Shown here: piece by piece, positions 17,909 through 35,609 of the stretch
Numbering within the stretch: the first letter of the stretch is position 1
Layout of the letters: each line of letters opens with the position of its first letter
Source of the DNA: Planctomycetota bacterium
Lineage (GTDB): Bacteria; Planctomycetota; Planctomycetia; Gemmatales; Gemmataceae
Reading direction: 5' to 3'
NCBI GenBank assembly: GCA_021324515.1
Contig: JAJPIY010000240.1
Coordinates: 1 to 44,150, forward strand
DNA: 44,150 bases
Translations under genes and position numbers: made by a program
Notes under the pieces: generated by a model
What the model was told of the DNA's origin: nothing
Databases searched by the model: none
What the model saw: the letters and a program-made list of their open reading frames with translations, nothing else

Positions 17909-18823
17909 GTGCAAACGCAAAAGACGACAACAATGCGGCGCGGTGGTTTCACTCTTATCGAATTGCTCGTGGTCATTGGCATCATCTCGCTCTTGGCGGC
18001 GCTCTTGCTGCCTGCGGTACAGAAAGTGCGCGAGGCCGCCAGCCGCGCCAGTTGCAGCAATAATCTGCACCAGATCGGTCTCGCTTTCATCATGTACCAT
18101 GACAACTATAGCAACCTGCCGCCCAACCGGCTCAGCGACTTGCACGCTACATGGGCCGTCCTGATCCTGCCTTATGTCGAACAAAGCAACCTGTACGCTC
18201 AGTGGGATCTCGTTAAGGTCTATTACGATCAGTCCGACCTGGCCCGGTTGACGCCGGTGCCGACCTACTTTTGTCCTTCGCGACGCACCGCGCAAACCGC
18301 TCCCGGACACAGCATCTCAGGAGACCAAAACGACGACATCGGCCCGACGCTAGGGCCGTTCGTGCCGGGGGCGCTGGGTGATTATGCCACTTGCACCGGC
18401 ACAGATAACTGCGATGGCTGCGACTGCGACGGCCACGTTTATAATGGCGCCTTCCGCGCCGCCATGAACCAATATGGCCAAATGCTCGGCTACCTGTCCT
18501 TTACGGACATTCGGGATGGTCTTAGCAATACCCTTTTCGCAGGCGATAAGCACGTCCATATCCAATACTTCGGTTGCGGCGTGCTCGATTGCTCGCTGTA
18601 CAACGGTGACTACTGGATGTGTTCCAGCCGCTCGGTCGGGCCGAATTATCCCATCGCCCAGAAACCGACTGATACCGTCATCGGCTTCGGCGGCTATCAC
18701 ACAGGCGTCTGTCAATTTCTTTTCGGCGACGGCAGCGTCCGTGCCCTGGCCAACAATGCAGATCCCAACACCCTTGCCCTGTTGGCAAACATTTCGGACG
18801 GACAAGCCATTCCGGAGCTTTGA
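17909..18823 (+). CDS. DUF1559 domain protein with type IV prepilin-like N-terminus
   Basis: [52 protein letters not shown]-terminal [11 protein letters not shown]. Start at GTG 17909 or ATG 17933. Confidence 0.93.
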
Positions 18824-28208: not shown

Positions 28209-30419
28209 TCATTCCGCTCCCTTGCCTTCGCGCACTTCTTGGATGCGCTTCAGCACTTCGTTGCGGCGATCGATACGTTCTTTGTCGTTGGTGTCTTTAG
28301 CACTGTTGCGGGCCAGCAACTTGCCGTCTGGAGCGAGCATCAGTACTTCGATGGCGCTGTCGTCGGTGGTTTTGGAATTGGGGACAGGTAAGCGGCTGCC
28401 GCCCTCAAAATCTACCAGGATCAGATTGTTTTCCGGAGGATCTTGGCCGAAATCCACATCGATGCCGGTGGGCACTTTGCCGCCGGCGCGCGCACTGGGC
28501 TTTTGTACTTCGGCCGGGAGAATAAAGGTGTTCTGCGTGTACTTCCAGATGGGAATGTCGATATTGACCTTTCGGCCTACGTATTCGCCGCGGGCGACAA
28601 AGACGCGATCGGCCACTGCCCATTCCCCGACGGGAATTCGCTCCGTCTCTTTGCGGCTTAGCTGGGTTGCTTCTACCCAGCGATGGAATTGGAAGACTAC
28701 CTGTTCACTGGCGGGGCTTGGGGCGGTGGCCCTGAGTAGACGGTACTGAGCGCTCTCTAACGGAAGCGCCCTTATATCTCTCATGCTCATACCCCGCGCT
28801 TCATCTACCACATAATAGAATGTTTCTTCCGGCACCTTAACAATCTGCGGTAGCTCATACCACTCACTGGATTCCAAGGTTTCTTTTTCCTTGTATTCCG
28901 GCGAAGCTACGTCTGAGCGCTGGTAATTGGGATTGGCCATCTTGATCTTGAGCCGATAGCGATAGAACTTGCCTGGCTCAACATTGACATCCACCACGCG
29001 GACCAGAACGTAGTCGGGGACATAACTCTGTTCGGCGTTGGCCCCACCTGGTTGGGGGGTGGTTTTAAGTTGGGGCTGAGCGGCGTTGTCGCTGGGCAGG
29101 GCTACACGAGGATCAAAGGGATCGCCAAAGTTGGGCTTTTGGAACTTCGGCTGGGCGATTTGATTGGGTTGCGCCTCGCGTAGTTTGTCCAACGTCTCCT
29201 TGATTTTCGGTAGCTCGGCGGCAACGTCCGGATACTTGGTTTTGTTTTCTTCAGCCGGCGGCGCTTCCGGCGGCCGCGCCATGCCGGGGGCCAGCGAGCT
29301 TCTCCCTCCCATCATCATCATCATTCCAGAAAGACCCGGCGCTTTGGCCTGGCTGGCATGAAATTCCCGCAGCAGCGGCATCACCAAACCTTTGCCGTCG
29401 TTGGGCATAACGGAAGCATACTTGGGATCTTCCGACTGGAAGGGGTAATACGTGTGTTGCAGCCACACCTGATACGATTCCTTCAGCTGGGGATCCTGCC
29501 AATTACTTATCGGTTTGCCGTTGGCATCTACTTCCATGCGTTCCACTTCCACGCCGCGGAAGTCAAAGGCCGCCGATTGTTTGTCACCTTCTCCTATTGT
29601 TTCGCTGAGTACGGCATCGATGCTCTTCAGCCGGAGCTTGTGCATGTGTTCTTCCAGCTGTTTTTTGTACGGGAAGCTACCGGCGATGATAGCCATGCGC
29701 AACGGGAGGAGTTGGTGCGCCGTTAACTGCTGTTCGTTCCAATCATCGACGGGAATCCACTTGGCCTCGTATTCAGGATTATTGCCGGCGCCGAGGAGCG
29801 AATTGAGGGCGCCAAGGTTCGGGTTCCCTAATAGGGACTGCTGCCTCTGGAGAAGGGGGTTGTTCGGCATCATGCTTCCCATGCCGCCCGGCATGCTCCT
29901 CTGAAGAGGAGCGAAGGGATTCATTCGCCCAGTATTGCTGGGGGCTGCGACCTTCCGGCCTTTATCTTCAAGGACCAAAATGGACGGCGGTTTCGCGTTG
30001 AAGCGAAATAGATAGGTATCGATGGGCACGGCAGCCACTTTGGCGACGGCTTCTTCGACGTTGTAAATCTTAGGCGGACGCCGCGACTTGTCTTCCTTCA
30101 TGCGCGGCTCAAACCAAGTTCCTGTAGGGTAATTGTCCGGCAACAAGAGGGTCGTATCGAGATCAATTAGCTTGCCCTCGCGGGTTTCGGGCAAGTCGCT
30201 TTCCTTGGGTTGGTTCGTTCGCAGGGCCGTCTCCAATTGTTCTGTGCGTTCATTCAACTCCTTAGCTTTGGCAGCAGGGCTACCACTGAAGAAGCCCTGA
30301 TTGGGCATGAAGAGACTGAGAATCAGCATAAGGACCATCAGCGTGACAGCCACACCGAGGCCGACTTGTTCGCCTTTCTCCAGCAGAAATTGTTTCATAT
30401 CGAATTCTTTACGGCTCAT
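28209..30419 (-). CDS. Large single-pass membrane protein, third gene of pilM-like operon (function unknown)
   Basis: MSRKEFDMKQFLLEKGEQVGLGVAVTLMVLMLILSLFMPN TM segment then a coiled-coil-like AKAKELNERTEQLETALR; Met/Gly/Pro-rich interior. The ORF extends to 30521, but that extension reads through an intercistronic hairpin. Confidence 0.75.
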   Translation of the reverse strand: MSRKEFDMKQFLLEKGEQVGLGVAVTLMVLMLILSLFMPNQGFFSGSPAAKAKELNERTEQLETALRTNQPKESDLPETREGKLIDLDTTLLLPDNYPTGTWFEPRMKEDKSRRPPKIYNVEEAVAKVAAVPIDTYLFRFNAKPPSILVLEDKGRKVAAPSNTGRMNPFAPLQRSMPGGMGSMMPNNPLLQRQQSLLGNPNLGALNSLLGAGNNPEYEAKWIPVDDWNEQQLTAHQLLPLRMAIIAGSFPYKKQLEEHMHKLRLKSIDAVLSETIGEGDKQSAAFDFRGVEVERMEVDANGKPISNWQDPQLKESYQVWLQHTYYPFQSEDPKYASVMPNDGKGLVMPLLREFHASQAKAPGLSGMMMMMGGRSSLAPGMARPPEAPPAEENKTKYPDVAAELPKIKETLDKLREAQPNQIAQPKFQKPNFGDPFDPRVALPSDNAAQPQLKTTPQPGGANAEQSYVPDYVLVRVVDVNVEPGKFYRYRLKIKMANPNYQRSDVASPEYKEKETLESSEWYELPQIVKVPEETFYYVVDEARGMSMRDIRALPLESAQYRLLRATAPSPASEQVVFQFHRWVEATQLSRKETERIPVGEWAVADRVFVARGEYVGRKVNIDIPIWKYTQNTFILPAEVQKPSARAGGKVPTGIDVDFGQDPPENNLILVDFEGGSRLPVPNSKTTDDSAIEVLMLAPDGKLLARNSAKDTNDKERIDRRNEVLKRIQEVREGKGAE

Positions 30420-30469
30420 GGCATTTGTATCCTCTGGCATTCCTCTGCGGAATAGCATTTCGCAATCTT

Positions 30470-30510
30470 CTTGTTGTGCCCGCAAGGAATGTACTTGCGG
30501 GCATAACAAG
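30470..30510. promoter_or_regulatory. Intercistronic hairpin cttgttgtgcccgcaag-gaatgta-cttgcgggcataacaag
   Basis: 17-bp arms with one mismatch and a 7-nt loop, located between two genes of the pilM-like operon. Confidence 0.65.
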
Positions 30511-30517
30511 ATCGTCT

Positions 30518-32704
30518 TCAACTTTTTTTGTTTCCGGCCGGTGGGGGCGGCGGCGGTGCTTTGGGCTGATCAGCGGGTTTATCCGCTTGTTTCGTCTCAG
30601 GCGGCGGCGTGGAGTTGGCACTCGGCGTGGTCGGAGCAGGCGACGGCGTGGCCGGGGCTGTTGCGGGCGGAGCCGCTGGTGACGTCGGGGAGGCTGACGG
30701 TTGCTGGTGGCCTGACTGAGGGGCTGATGTCCCGGACAAGCTAGACTGTTCCGCAGTCGGGGGGGCATCCGGTGCGCGATACAAGGTGGCGATACCATAA
30801 ATGGTCAACTCCACCAAGTTATCGTCGAACGAGTTCGTTTCGGATTGTTTGGCGTCTATTGTGCTGACCGGGAAGTTCCCACCCCGCCGTATGCCACCGG
30901 GCGCGGATAAGTAAGCCGGCGGTCCCGAGGGGCCTGCCATCCCGCCTGAACCAGGCAGCGGGGTCATCATCCTCTGGGGCATCATCCCCTGTTGCATTTG
31001 CCGTTGCATTTGCATTTGCCGTTGCATTTGGATCTGTTGCATCTGCGCAGCTTGCTGCTGGCCTCCTTGTTGCATGCGCATCTGCATTTCCATTTGCATG
31101 CGCATCTGCTCCGGCGTCGGGCCGCCAGCCATACTGGCGCCGGGCATGCCAGCCATGAAGACCCGCGGACTTGCTGTATCCGTACCGTCTTTTTGGTTTT
31201 TTTCGTCCTCGCTCTGGGGCACGTAATCCTTGGCGTGCGTGAACTCGACCTGCGTGATCTGGAAGCGCAACCGCGAGTTGGCTAAGGCCAAAAGTACATC
31301 GTTGATGTGCGTTTGCTCAACGATCAACTGCAAGGCCAAAGGCAGATGACGGCTGGGCGGATTGATTTTCTTGTCCTGGTCTGCGGGTTGCAAATAGCGA
31401 TTGCGTTCGATTTCATTGTTAGGCGTCTTATTGCCGGCCGATGCGGTGCCGGTCATACCCGTTGGTCCGCCCATCATCATCATCATGGGCGCACCGCTGC
31501 TGCTGGGCATACTACCGCCGGGCGGTCCACCACCAGGCGACCCGGCGCCGGGGGGCATACCAGGGCCGCCCGCCGCGCTGGCAGCATTCTTTTCTTCATC
31601 CTCCGGAAGAGCGTCGAGCGCCGCCAAAATGTGATTGGGTTGTAAGGGCCAGATGAACGTCCGACTATCTTGCTTGGCTAACTCAATGGCATTGATACGA
31701 CGAATCGGGCAATTGGTCTGATCGAAGCCTTGGCTGACGACAATCGGATGCTCTTTGACCCATTCCTTGTCCCATTTGATGCCGCTGAGCGGATCGGGAT
31801 AGTTTTCCTCGCTGAACTTTTTCGTTTCGTTCCAGACTACTGGCTCGCCTCGGACCTCGAAGAGCGTATGCACGCTGTCTTGAGCGACGTTGAACCAGAT
31901 GCCCCGGCCTTTGGCGCTGGTGAGCGGCTGAGGATGCCGGCTAGGGTGAATATTCTTGATGGTGCTGTCGCCGCCGATGACAGGTTGGCCTTTGTCGTTC
32001 TTGCGGATATGGAGCGTGATTTCCCAGTTCTTATTGCGGTAGCGATAGCGGGCCTCAACACCTTTGGGCATCGGTTCTGCCTTCTCGTCGATCGCCACTG
32101 GCTGCATGAGGGCCTGGCGAGCCATGGCGTCATAAACGACCACGAGCAGTTCACGCTTGACCCAGAAGTCTTCTTGGGCTAGCCAGATCTCTTCGCGCGT
32201 CGGCGTCTCTTTCCAATCTTTTTTCGGATTGAAGACGTTGTCGAAACCGCCTTTGAACTCTACGGGATTGAGCCACTTGGGCGCGTAAGTACGCAAGTTA
32301 TTGATCTGATTGGGATAGAGTTTATCTCGGTACTCGGCGCGGTCATCTGCGCTGATCGGAACCTGCGGATCGGTCAGGCCGTTATATTTCTTGATCCACT
32401 CCGCAGGCCAATCGTACATGCCCGATTGATAATTCCAGGCATGCGCCCAAATGACACTTTTGTGATCGCTGAAACTCTTGGCCTCCTTCTCCCACGGTGG
32501 CAGGAAAGTGGCCGTGTTGACGGGACCGCTGCTTTGGGCGGTTTTGACAGAATTGGCCGCCTCGTCATATTTCTTCTTAAGCCCTGCGATCTCGTCGGGA
32601 TAGGTGAATTTCATCCACATCACGGCGACGAGCCAGAGGAGAAAATAGCCTCCCAGCAGAAACCAGAACTGGTGCTTGGCAACGGTTTCTTGATCGAGCT
32701 TCAT
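30518..32704 (-). CDS. Large single-pass membrane protein, second gene of pilM-like operon (PilO-like topology, Met/Gln-rich segment)
   Basis: KHQFWFLLGGYFLLWLVAVMWMKFTYPDEIAGLKKKYDEAANSVK (TM plus helix); MRMQMEMQMRMQQGGQQQAAQMQQIQMQRQMQMQRQMQQGMMPQRMM; Pro-rich C-terminus. Confidence 0.75.
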   Translation of the reverse strand: MKLDQETVAKHQFWFLLGGYFLLWLVAVMWMKFTYPDEIAGLKKKYDEAANSVKTAQSSGPVNTATFLPPWEKEAKSFSDHKSVIWAHAWNYQSGMYDWPAEWIKKYNGLTDPQVPISADDRAEYRDKLYPNQINNLRTYAPKWLNPVEFKGGFDNVFNPKKDWKETPTREEIWLAQEDFWVKRELLVVVYDAMARQALMQPVAIDEKAEPMPKGVEARYRYRNKNWEITLHIRKNDKGQPVIGGDSTIKNIHPSRHPQPLTSAKGRGIWFNVAQDSVHTLFEVRGEPVVWNETKKFSEENYPDPLSGIKWDKEWVKEHPIVVSQGFDQTNCPIRRINAIELAKQDSRTFIWPLQPNHILAALDALPEDEEKNAASAAGGPGMPPGAGSPGGGPPGGSMPSSSGAPMMMMMGGPTGMTGTASAGNKTPNNEIERNRYLQPADQDKKINPPSRHLPLALQLIVEQTHINDVLLALANSRLRFQITQVEFTHAKDYVPQSEDEKNQKDGTDTASPRVFMAGMPGASMAGGPTPEQMRMQMEMQMRMQQGGQQQAAQMQQIQMQRQMQMQRQMQQGMMPQRMMTPLPGSGGMAGPSGPPAYLSAPGGIRRGGNFPVSTIDAKQSETNSFDDNLVELTIYGIATLYRAPDAPPTAEQSSLSGTSAPQSGHQQPSASPTSPAAPPATAPATPSPAPTTPSANSTPPPETKQADKPADQPKAPPPPPPAGNKKS

Positions 32705-32816
32705 GTTTTAACCCCCTTGCTGGGGTGGTCATAGGTGATGGTGTGGCAACCCTTTTTCCTCAGCCCGCAGTGCCGGCCCGGTGGCGCTGCGAACGGGTTT
32801 ATCACTACATTCTTCT

Positions 32817-35609
32817 CTAACGTCCCTTTTGACGCCCGCGGCCTCTTTTGGGACGAGAGAACCCAGGCGACGAGTTGGAAGAAGCCGCCGGGGCCACGGC
32901 CCCGCTGCTTGAATCGCCGCTTGTCAAGTTGCGCAGGCGGTCGGAATCGGTTGGCTCCTTCCAGATAAGCAAGATGACGAACTCGGTTCGCTTCAGCCCA
33001 CGATTATTCTCTGAGGGCGGCATGCTACCGTTGGATTGCATTCCGGCTGGCGACGCACCGCTGTATTTCTTCATCATGTCCATCTGGCGGCGCATCCGCT
33101 CGTCACCGCCAGCTCCACCCGGCATAGCAGCGCTGCCCCGCTTGCGCATCATGTCCATTGGTCCTCCCATGCCGGATCCTCCCATGCCGGAGCCTTTTGT
33201 CGCAGGCTCTACACCCAGCGGCGTCCAATCTTTTCGGCTGGGAGTGGTCGAAGCGCTGGGGCCTCCAGACGGACCTCCTGGGCCGGCCATACCGCCCGGA
33301 GGACTGCCGCCGCTGGCGCCGCCGCCTGGAGGGCTGGCGGACGTGCCGGAGGCCGAAGTCATGCCGCTGGGCATGGGGCCGCCAGGCATGGAGCCACCAC
33401 CAGGCATGCCCATGCCGCCAGGCCCCATCCCGCCTGTGTTCACGATGCCCAAGGCCAACTCCTTGACTTCCTCATGCGTGCTCTCATTGAGAATCTCGAA
33501 AGGAGCGTCGGCGGACGACTGGGCCGTCTTGTACAAGACTACATGGCTAATGCGGTTGATGACGGGGCCGAGCGGTTCCAGTTCCTTCTGCTCTGCTCCC
33601 GCAGAGGCACTGGCCCCGCCTGGAGGCGACGCCGGGGCGCCTGGCGGGGCCGCAGTCGGGGTTGCTGCGCCCGCGGGAGCTGTCGCTCCTCCGGCGGCGG
33701 CATCCGCTTTCTTTTCTCGAATGCCCAGCCGCGCGAGGTTTTCTAACAGCGTGTTCTTGATGAAGCTCTCTCCATCGCTATGGTAGGTCCAACCGTGCAG
33801 CTCGATGATCCAGCCGGCCCCCTGGGGAGGTTTTTGGAAGTGGTCCTTGGGGCGGACCCATTCCTCGCGATTTCTTTTCACGCGATCGCTTTTCTTCACC
33901 AGGTCCCAGTAGGTTCCCAAGTTGTCGCAGAAAAAAGCTTGCACCGACTCGATGTTGAACTGAACGAGGTCCTGCACGCTTTGATTCGGCTCGTCGGCGC
34001 CTTCCTTGCTTCCTGAGACAACGCGCTGCGAGAGATACTCTTGATAGGCCTTCGTGGCCTTGGGCACATACTTGGTCTGCACCTCCGGCAGATCGAAGGG
34101 GATGTCGTCCAGTGTGATCGTTTCGGCGACGTTGCCGTCTTCGGCGAGGACTTTGTATTCCAGCTTTTTGCGGATGTCCGGTTGCGGGATAGCGGCGTTG
34201 AGGAACTTGAACAACTCCGGCCAATTGTCGCGTTCGAATTGACCGGCGACAATCGTGCGAACCGCGTCTTCTTCGTCCCGTGCTTTCTTCTTGGCCGCAT
34301 CCAGGGCGCTCTTGGCGGATTGGGCCTTCTTGGCGGCATCGCCGGCGGCAACGACGGCTTTCTCAACCCTTTTATCACCCCAGGTGCGTTTCTCCAGGCC
34401 ATAGCTAAGGGCCATACCAAGACTGCCAAAGAGGAGAGCGGCGGCAGCGGCAGCGGCAAACGGCTTTTTGGCCTTGATGAGACGCTCAATTCGGATCTCG
34501 TTGGGCAGCAGGTTCGTCAACAAGCGCGCCCGTTTGAGTCCTTGCAGGGCCAGCCCATAGGCTACCCCGAACGTCAGGATATTTTCCGTGAACGCCTGCT
34601 GCGCGATCACCTGGTCGCCGTTGATGCGCTCCATCTTGGTCAGCTTTTTGACTTCTAGCTGGAGTTTTTCGCTGAGGAACTTCTGTAAACCCGGCAGACG
34701 GAAGGCGTTGCCCAGGCCGATCATGTATTCGATATGGGCGTCGCGGTGGGTATTGGTGAAATAGCCCAGCGAGCGCTGCACTTCACCGACGAAATCATTG
34801 AGCACCGGCTTAAGGGCCGCCAAAATCTTCTTCAAGTCCGGTGACTTGGTGGCGTTGCGCTTGAGGTGCTCGGCCTTGGCGAAAGTCAGCTTGAGGTCTT
34901 TGGTCAAAGCACGGGTGAAGTGGTTGCCGCCCAACGGAATGGGACGCTGCCAGATGATGCGTTCGCCATCGGTAATGACCAGGTTGCTGCTGTCGGTGCC
35001 GATGTCCAGGGCAACGACGCATTTTTTGTCGCCGCCGCCTTCGCTGGGTTGTTCCGCATCCTTGCCCAGAAGATCGAAAGACACATAATTGCACAGGGCC
35101 AACGGCGCCATCTGCACTACATGGACGTCGATATTAACGTCTTTGAAGTGTTGCAAATAGCGGCCCACCATGTCGCGCTTCATGGCAAACAGACCGATCT
35201 CCGTTTCCATTGCGAAGCCATCGGTGACGGTCCCAGAGCCGATCTTCTGATAATCCCAAACCACTTCATCGAGATTGAAGGGGATCTGCTGCTTGGCCTC
35301 AAAGCGCACAATATCGGCGATCTTCTTTTCCTCAACCGGCGGCAGTTTCACGAAGCGGGCCAATCCACTCTGTCCGGGGACGCTGATGGCCACGATGTCG
35401 CCGCGCAAGTTGTTGCGCGACAAGAACTTGTCCAAGGCTTCCCGAGTGAGTTGGTCGGGGTCCGCGTCCGGTTGACTGAGGATTTTAGGATGTTCGACAT
35501 AATCAAAAGCGGTGGCGACGAGTTGTCCGTCGATTTCTTGTAGGCGGATCGCCTTTAAGCCGCACTGGCCTAGGTCGATGCCCCAAACGCCGATAGGCTG
35601 AACTGCCAT
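32817..35609 (-). CDS. pilM: PilM-like ATPase fused to a PilN-like segment, with Gly/Met/Pro-rich C-terminal region
   Basis: VWGIDLGQCGLKAIRLQEIDG...CVVALDIGTDSSNLVITDGERIIWQRPIPLGGNHFTRAL (actin-like PilM); then TNLLPNEIRIERLIKAKKPFAAAAAAALLFGSLGMALSYGL (PilN-like NLLP motif plus TM) and a coiled coil. Confidence 0.85.
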   Translation of the reverse strand: MAVQPIGVWGIDLGQCGLKAIRLQEIDGQLVATAFDYVEHPKILSQPDADPDQLTREALDKFLSRNNLRGDIVAISVPGQSGLARFVKLPPVEEKKIADIVRFEAKQQIPFNLDEVVWDYQKIGSGTVTDGFAMETEIGLFAMKRDMVGRYLQHFKDVNIDVHVVQMAPLALCNYVSFDLLGKDAEQPSEGGGDKKCVVALDIGTDSSNLVITDGERIIWQRPIPLGGNHFTRALTKDLKLTFAKAEHLKRNATKSPDLKKILAALKPVLNDFVGEVQRSLGYFTNTHRDAHIEYMIGLGNAFRLPGLQKFLSEKLQLEVKKLTKMERINGDQVIAQQAFTENILTFGVAYGLALQGLKRARLLTNLLPNEIRIERLIKAKKPFAAAAAAALLFGSLGMALSYGLEKRTWGDKRVEKAVVAAGDAAKKAQSAKSALDAAKKKARDEEDAVRTIVAGQFERDNWPELFKFLNAAIPQPDIRKKLEYKVLAEDGNVAETITLDDIPFDLPEVQTKYVPKATKAYQEYLSQRVVSGSKEGADEPNQSVQDLVQFNIESVQAFFCDNLGTYWDLVKKSDRVKRNREEWVRPKDHFQKPPQGAGWIIELHGWTYHSDGESFIKNTLLENLARLGIREKKADAAAGGATAPAGAATPTAAPPGAPASPPGGASASAGAEQKELEPLGPVINRISHVVLYKTAQSSADAPFEILNESTHEEVKELALGIVNTGGMGPGGMGMPGGGSMPGGPMPSGMTSASGTSASPPGGGASGGSPPGGMAGPGGPSGGPSASTTPSRKDWTPLGVEPATKGSGMGGSGMGGPMDMMRKRGSAAMPGGAGGDERMRRQMDMMKKYSGASPAGMQSNGSMPPSENNRGLKRTEFVILLIWKEPTDSDRLRNLTSGDSSSGAVAPAASSNSSPGFSRPKRGRGRQKGR

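Follow-up and report, generated by a model that had tools for sequence, protein, structure and literature searches.

Three adjacent genes on the minus strand of a planctomycete contig most probably encode the inner-membrane platform for alignment and assembly in a type IV pilus-like machine, of the kind represented by the MUL2 locus of Akkermansia (Amuc_1098-1102). The window that we analyzed, 44,150 nt long, comprises one entire contig from a 4.9 Mb draft genome whose nearest named relatives are Gemmataceae and other Planctomycetota. We base this reading on observations of gene content, of synteny and conservation across the phylum, of the relationship between the PilM-like protein and Amuc_1101, of linkage to a secretin gene in relatives, and of pilus motors encoded elsewhere in the same genome.

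The three-gene locus and its PilM-PilN fusion

The open reading frames and sizes given in a preliminary description of this DNA were confirmed for all three genes: a PilM-PilN fusion (P0001; 930 aa) at 32817..35609, P2 (P0002; 728 aa) at 30518..32704, and P3 (736 aa) at 28209..30419. P3 starts at the ATG encoding MSRKEFD, as does its orthologue at locus L061. Because the genes share a strand and are separated by short gaps (112 nt between the fusion and P2; 98 nt between P2 and P3), the arrangement suggests a single operon. A promoter scan performed no better than on shuffled sequence, and terminator-like sites were in excess, but chiefly on the plus strand, not on that of the triplet.

The N-terminal part of P0001 is an actin-like PilM domain (aa 1-360; 34530..35609), matched by PilM_2 (PF11104) over aa 10-356 with E 2e-35 and by TIGR01175 pilM at 148.6 bits, over the cut-off of 133. 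The top Foldseek matches of its predicted structure are likewise PilM structures (5eou, 3jc8, and 2ych), the first of which combines PilN residues 1-12 with PilM, and PilM structures lead the sequence matches too. About five residues past this domain begins the PilN-type docking motif TNLLPNEI (aa 365-372; 34494..34517), the start of the segment TNLLPNEIRIER (aa 365-376), which is followed by a KKP motif and then by a hydrophobic helix with a coiled coil behind it. The transmembrane helix (approximately aa 384-407; 34389..34460) comes after the invariant K381 and P383 of the KKP motif and is delimited by the sequence together with an AlphaFold helix at 370-407; the motif stands directly ahead of the hydrophobic helix, where the preliminary description had placed an NLLP-type peptide. 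Across 71 aligned homologues, T365, L367, P369, R376, K381, and P383 are invariant, N366 (65/71), E371 (65/71), and L368 (69/71) are nearly so, and the form NL[LVM]P recurs in several fusions from deep classes of the phylum. Since it is near-invariant in these homologues, the TNLLPNEI motif is no chance occurrence and is under strong selection.

In the AlphaFold model of P0001 (71-row alignment; mean pLDDT 73), the PilM part is confident, and residues 361-370, which hold most of the motif, form an ordered coil (pLDDT ~92) that leads into helices 370-407 and 413-459. Because the motif segment is predicted to be ordered beside PilM, the peptide could plausibly dock on the PilM groove in cis, or it may dock on a neighboring subunit. 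The ferredoxin-like periplasmic fold of PilN runs alpha-beta-beta-alpha-beta-beta, and the same order is predicted behind the coiled coil in the whole-chain model, mostly at high confidence (H462-473, E552-561, E599-608, H614-629, E687-699, and E873-883), with additional helices and a short hairpin between these elements. The PilN-like periplasmic domain so delimited by element order and composition (approximately aa 455-890; 32940..34247) carries a Gly/Pro/Met-rich insertion around aa 630-870; a Pfam search found no match in P0001 to the PilN family (PF05137). With a PilM_2 domain, an invariant docking motif, and a predicted PilN strand order in one chain, the PilM-PilN fusion first proposed from the letters alone is upheld. 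The fusion principle itself is a known solution, as GspL of type II secretion already joins PilM and PilN in one chain (PMC4471445), and it is also implied by the Amuc_1101 model. The planctomycete protein is also a naturally occurring single-chain PilM-PilN with which to study structurally the coupling of the cytoplasmic ring to the periplasmic cage.

P2 opens with an N-terminal transmembrane segment (KHQFWFLLGGYFLLWL) followed by a helix and closes with a beta-alpha-beta...beta pattern, and P3 combines an N-terminal transmembrane segment (FLLEKGEQVGLGVAVTLMVL) with a beta-alpha-beta segment and an FN3-like stretch (YVLVRVVDVNVEPGKFYRYRL). The single-pass membrane topology earlier described as PilO-like thus stood for both proteins, with the subsequent helix in P2, but the likeness found no counterpart in profiles: neither protein has a confident match in Pfam, NCBIfam, or PDB profiles, where only chance or low-complexity matches appeared. 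PilO (PF04350) and PilP (PF04351) matched none of 57 P2 or 43 P3 members, PilN, PilO, and PilP profiles from split systems (five sequences) matched neither protein, and profile searches detected no homology of either to PilO, PilP, GspM, or GspC. The weak matches comprised Amuc_1100_fam in 2 of the 57 P2 members (best E 0.0089; P0002 itself had no match), T2SSM (GspM) in one short P2 (E 0.016), and fn3 in one short P3 (E 0.11). An HHalign match of P2 to the PilN half, at 94.5% probability, was not counted as homology because the aligned region consists of the transmembrane helix and coiled coil. As no Pfam, NCBIfam, or PDB family matches, the PilO-like character of the two proteins is putative; P2 and P3 are, from gene order, the positional counterparts of Amuc_1100 and Amuc_1099, respectively.

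P2 and P3 are, as first noted, far larger in this genome than classical pilus proteins, and their size proved largely lineage-specific. The median P2 length falls from 646 aa in the loci nearest to the window (L107-L168) to 502 aa in more distant Planctomycetia loci; in other classes P2 measures 283-513 aa, and P3 falls to 419-490 aa in some loci. The surplus is low-complexity Gly/Pro/Met/Gln-rich sequence, with a G+P+M content of 38-56% in three inserts, and both proteins owe their great size mainly to Gly/Pro/Met-rich sequence inserted, in a lineage-specific way, into a shorter ancestral design.

Kinship with the Akkermansia locus and age of the fusion

In Akkermansia, Amuc_1098-1102 form one gene cluster (PMC5332112), in which Amuc_1098 is a PilQ with N-terminal TPR repeats (PMC4960237) and Amuc_1099-1102 carry the name MUL2, a pilus-like locus tied to mucin transport, glycan capture, and attachment (PMC13174399). 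Among NCBIfam models, P0001 matches Amuc_1101_fam best (NF045709; 208.6 bits, E 1.9e-61), ahead of the generic pilM model, and the Amuc_1101_fam alignment extends to aa 477, past the PilM domain, the NLLP peptide, the transmembrane helix, and the coiled coil. Five deep-class fusions showed the same preference, whereas four split PilMs from T2SS-like operons of the same class showed the reverse. The curated Amuc_1101 cut-off lies at 650 bits, P0001 scores 209, and the cut-off was passed in 0 of 294 genomes of the phylum; because none of the planctomycete proteins reaches it, the fusions are, as judged by profile, kin of Amuc_1101 and not members under the NCBI rule. The planctomycete order of fusion, P2, P3, and secretin equals Amuc_1101-1100-1099-1098, with the Akkermansia order read from locus numbering. 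This MUL2-like four-gene order is found in three deep-class loci (L253, L254, and L255) and in those Planctomycetia in which the secretin is linked, the window holding the first three genes only. From profile scores and gene order, we infer common descent of the planctomycete fusions with Amuc_1101, and the kinship with the Akkermansia Amuc_1100 locus that had been suggested at the outset is borne out by the best family match and by the gene order in relatives. The passed TIGR01175 cut-off (148.6 versus 133) would also suit a plain T4aP PilMNOP(Q) set whose divergence in Gemmataceae was one of size only, with no special relation to MUL2. This alternative is nevertheless highly improbable, given the consistent preference for the Amuc_1101 model with an alignment beyond the PilM domain, the opposite preference of split PilMs from the same phylum, and P2 and P3 proteins that match neither PilO nor PilP.

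Nearly all Planctomycetia genomes examined have the triplet, which is also widespread in the phylum. Among 59 relatives spanning eight families of the class Planctomycetia, 58 have PilM-N and 54 have P3, and the order and strand of the triplet were constant in about 27 fetched loci as called by the ORF caller, with no other conserved neighbor gene. A scan of named genomes recovered 555 stretches encoding relatives; from the best 80 of these 555 loci, all 70 long open frames (only frames of at least 600 aa were kept) continue for a long stretch past the PilM domain. The ORF caller produced wrong frames in GC-rich L070, L078, L081, and L257 and in parts of L238, L241, and L252, which were excluded from absence calls. 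With the triplet syntenic through the class Planctomycetia and the fusion reaching deep classes, an arrangement at first called atypical is in fact standard for the phylum.

In the PilM tree, 36 of 36 fusions stand apart from split PilMs with support of 100/100, long branches being involved, and the fusion occurs in all deep lineages sampled, a sample that leans towards fusions as these lineages were chosen from the best Amuc_1101 matches. Because the tree separates all fusions from split PilMs, the fusion is old in the phylum; a recent one-off event was rejected, as all sampled deep lineages have it. Two paralogues with a C-terminal PilM domain behind about 460 aa of other sequence (862 aa, L089 9141-11729, minus strand; 872 aa, L090 7469-10087, plus strand) nest inside the fusion clade; the PilN half is absent from both and appears to have been lost.

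Secretin, motors, and coexisting secretion operons

As the preliminary description had reported, no PilQ, PilB, PilT, or PilD lies near the locus, and none was found within the window. A genome-wide search, which that description had advised, located PilB, PilT, PilC, prepilin peptidases, and three secretins, all on contigs other than that of the triplet. The C17 secretin measures 1574 aa and matches PF00263 (5.6e-23), the PilQ model (6e-22, below its cut-off), GspD (E 4e-19), and Amuc_1098_fam, the last being the best of all models for the L238 secretin. Its orthologues at E <1e-50 occur in 58 of the 59 relatives and are usually 1400-1970 aa long. The secretin gene lies directly downstream of the triplet in four relatives (G044, G053, G056, and G057). 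Besides the deep-class loci with the full order fusion, P2, P3, and secretin, it directly follows P2 in L239 and the fusion gene in L238, L241, and L252, where the genes between were lost by the ORF caller. Deep-class secretins adjoining the triplet carry long N-terminal repeats, and in Gemmataceae the secretin has moved away from the triplet locus. A large repeat-like helical protein follows the secretin in L238 (2-2581), L239 (127-3474), L252 (3-3260), and L255 (2-1840), all on the minus strand; these proteins are about 600-1100 aa long, some being cut by locus ends, and only those of L238 and L239 are alike by BLAST. In the genome of the window, a 1341-aa Ser/Thr kinase fused to 13 WD40 repeats (L017 3682-7707, minus strand) comes directly after the giant secretin and overlaps its stop codon.

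PilT scores 438 bits against a cut-off of 319, two PilB-like ATPases score 641 and 626 bits, slightly below the cut-off of 676, and PilC is represented by a T2SSF pair at C190; these genes apparently belong to a single cluster broken up between contigs C190 and C224. No direct physical link between motors and triplet was found, the motor genes lying on other contigs. A PilT orthologue is present in 57 of the 59 relatives, a few having only a more distant PilT copy. Two PilT frames at contig ends (L013 1-5057 and L014 1-308) differ slightly (LATV/LTTV), which represents either two PilT genes or strain variation at an assembly break. The genome also encodes prepilin peptidases (Peptidase_A24), Tad loci, and 48 N_methyl (prepilin-like) proteins, a very large repertoire set against its single PilM. 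One of the 48 is a 304-aa type IV prepilin-like protein ending in ..GDGSVRAL.. within the window (17909-18823, plus strand).

These components bear on two further readings. In a type II secretion platform, PilM-N would act as GspL, P2 as GspM, and P3 as GspC, and enzymes would be secreted via a short pseudopilus, an idea that fits the PilM+PilN architecture of GspL (PMC4471445), the GspD match of the C17 secretin, and the presence of GspE-like ATPases in the genome. We nevertheless regard it as unlikely. P0001 has no Pfam T2SSL or GspL_C domain, only PilM_2 and FtsA matching at E up to 1, and strict GspL membership was rejected; PilT, a retraction ATPase not used by type II secretion, is nearly universal. 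Furthermore, some Planctomycetia possess T2SS-like operons (L091-L095) with pseudopilins, their own split pilM-pilN-pilO-pilP, and their own secretin, coexisting with the fusion block; a split pilM-pilN-pilO-pilP-secretin operon with pseudopilins is carried in addition to it by G047, G050, G052, G054, and G056. PilN of these split operons begins with the docking motif DFLP, related to NLLP. As one cell holds both a split T2SS-like operon and the fusion block, we argue that the fusion block serves a machine other than type II secretion.

The second reading is a structural tether of the press-stud type, in which recycled pilus parts join the inner to the outer membrane and low-complexity inserts span a wide periplasm. 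The very long Gly/Pro/Met/Gln-rich stretches, with 38-56% G+P+M in three inserts, the secretins of 1400-1970 aa in most relatives, and the description of planctomycete crateriform structures as press-stud contacts between both membranes (PMC5394234) are in keeping with it. Yet a passive tether would have no use for PilM, the part that contacts the ATPases; the genome also encodes PilB, PilT, PilC, and many prepilins, and in Akkermansia the corresponding locus is a pilus-like one for glycan capture (PMC13174399), all of which makes a tether decidedly unlikely.

Proposed machine and comparison with known systems

In the MUL2-type platform that we favor, PilM-N would reach the PilB/PilT motors and PilC through its cytoplasmic actin-like domain and be held in the membrane by its PilN half. 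The NLLP peptide would dock most likely on a PilM groove, either within its own chain or on a neighboring one, and so docked, PilM could not leave the platform. P2 and P3 would complete the periplasmic cage, acting as PilO and PilP/GspC do, and connect it to the giant outer-membrane secretin with its long N-terminal repeats. Some of the 48 prepilin-like proteins would make up filaments, extended and retracted by PilB and PilT from elsewhere in the genome, and glycan capture would be a candidate function of the complex.

Such a platform may have a visible counterpart. P. limnophila and G. obscuriglobus bear pilus-like fibers that emerge from crateriform pits joining both membranes and bind gold-labeled dextran, and the genes for these pits and for planctomycete macromolecule uptake are unknown (PMC5394234). 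A pilus machine that is near-universal, outsized, and membrane-spanning is a natural candidate. We tentatively propose, as a possibility short of an even chance, that the triplet and the giant secretin build the crateriform structures: the secretin and the enlarged periplasmic proteins would form the press-stud, PilB and PilT would extend and retract the dextran-binding fibers, which bring polysaccharides into the swollen periplasm, and the whole would be a planctomycete version of MUL2 inherited since before the phyla split. This link is testable at once because three pilQ-like genes of P. limnophila (Plim_0794, Plim_3284, and Plim_3688) have already been deleted with viability kept (PMC11958385). 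Within the literature searched, Verrucomicrobiota are the only group with a described MUL2-type pilus (PMC13174399), and a phylum-wide planctomycete counterpart with enlarged parts, a secretin, and a link to crateriform pits appears to be new. The triplet and secretin provide named genes that would connect a MUL2-type pilus with crateriform pits and uptake.

Compared with T4aP PilMNOP of Thermus, Pseudomonas, and Myxococcus, the planctomycete system shares the PilM fold, the NLLP peptide, the transmembrane helix with coiled coil, the predicted PilN strand order, and PilB/PilT/PilC in the genome; it differs in having PilM and PilN in one chain, no recognizable PilO or PilP, and no pilQ beside the triplet in this genome. 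With GspL it has in common PilM-like and PilN-like halves in a single polypeptide, but it retains both the NLLP peptide and a complete PilM_2 signature, lacks a Pfam GspL-family match and a pseudopilin operon, and is accompanied by PilT. The crateriform structures with 12-nm dextran-binding fibers of Planctopirus limnophila and Gemmata obscuriglobus occur in the same bacterial groups; these pits join two membranes and carry pilus-like fibers (PMC5394234), and they may be linked to the triplet. From MUL2 it differs in belonging to another phylum, in the much longer P2 and P3 and the far longer, unlinked secretin of Gemmataceae, and in a fusion that scores below the NCBI Amuc_1101 cut-off. Both nevertheless have a PilM-like protein, with the Amuc_1101 model (608 positions) running past the PilM domain, and two uncharacterized proteins between it and a repeat-bearing secretin, in deep-class planctomycetes in the same gene order.
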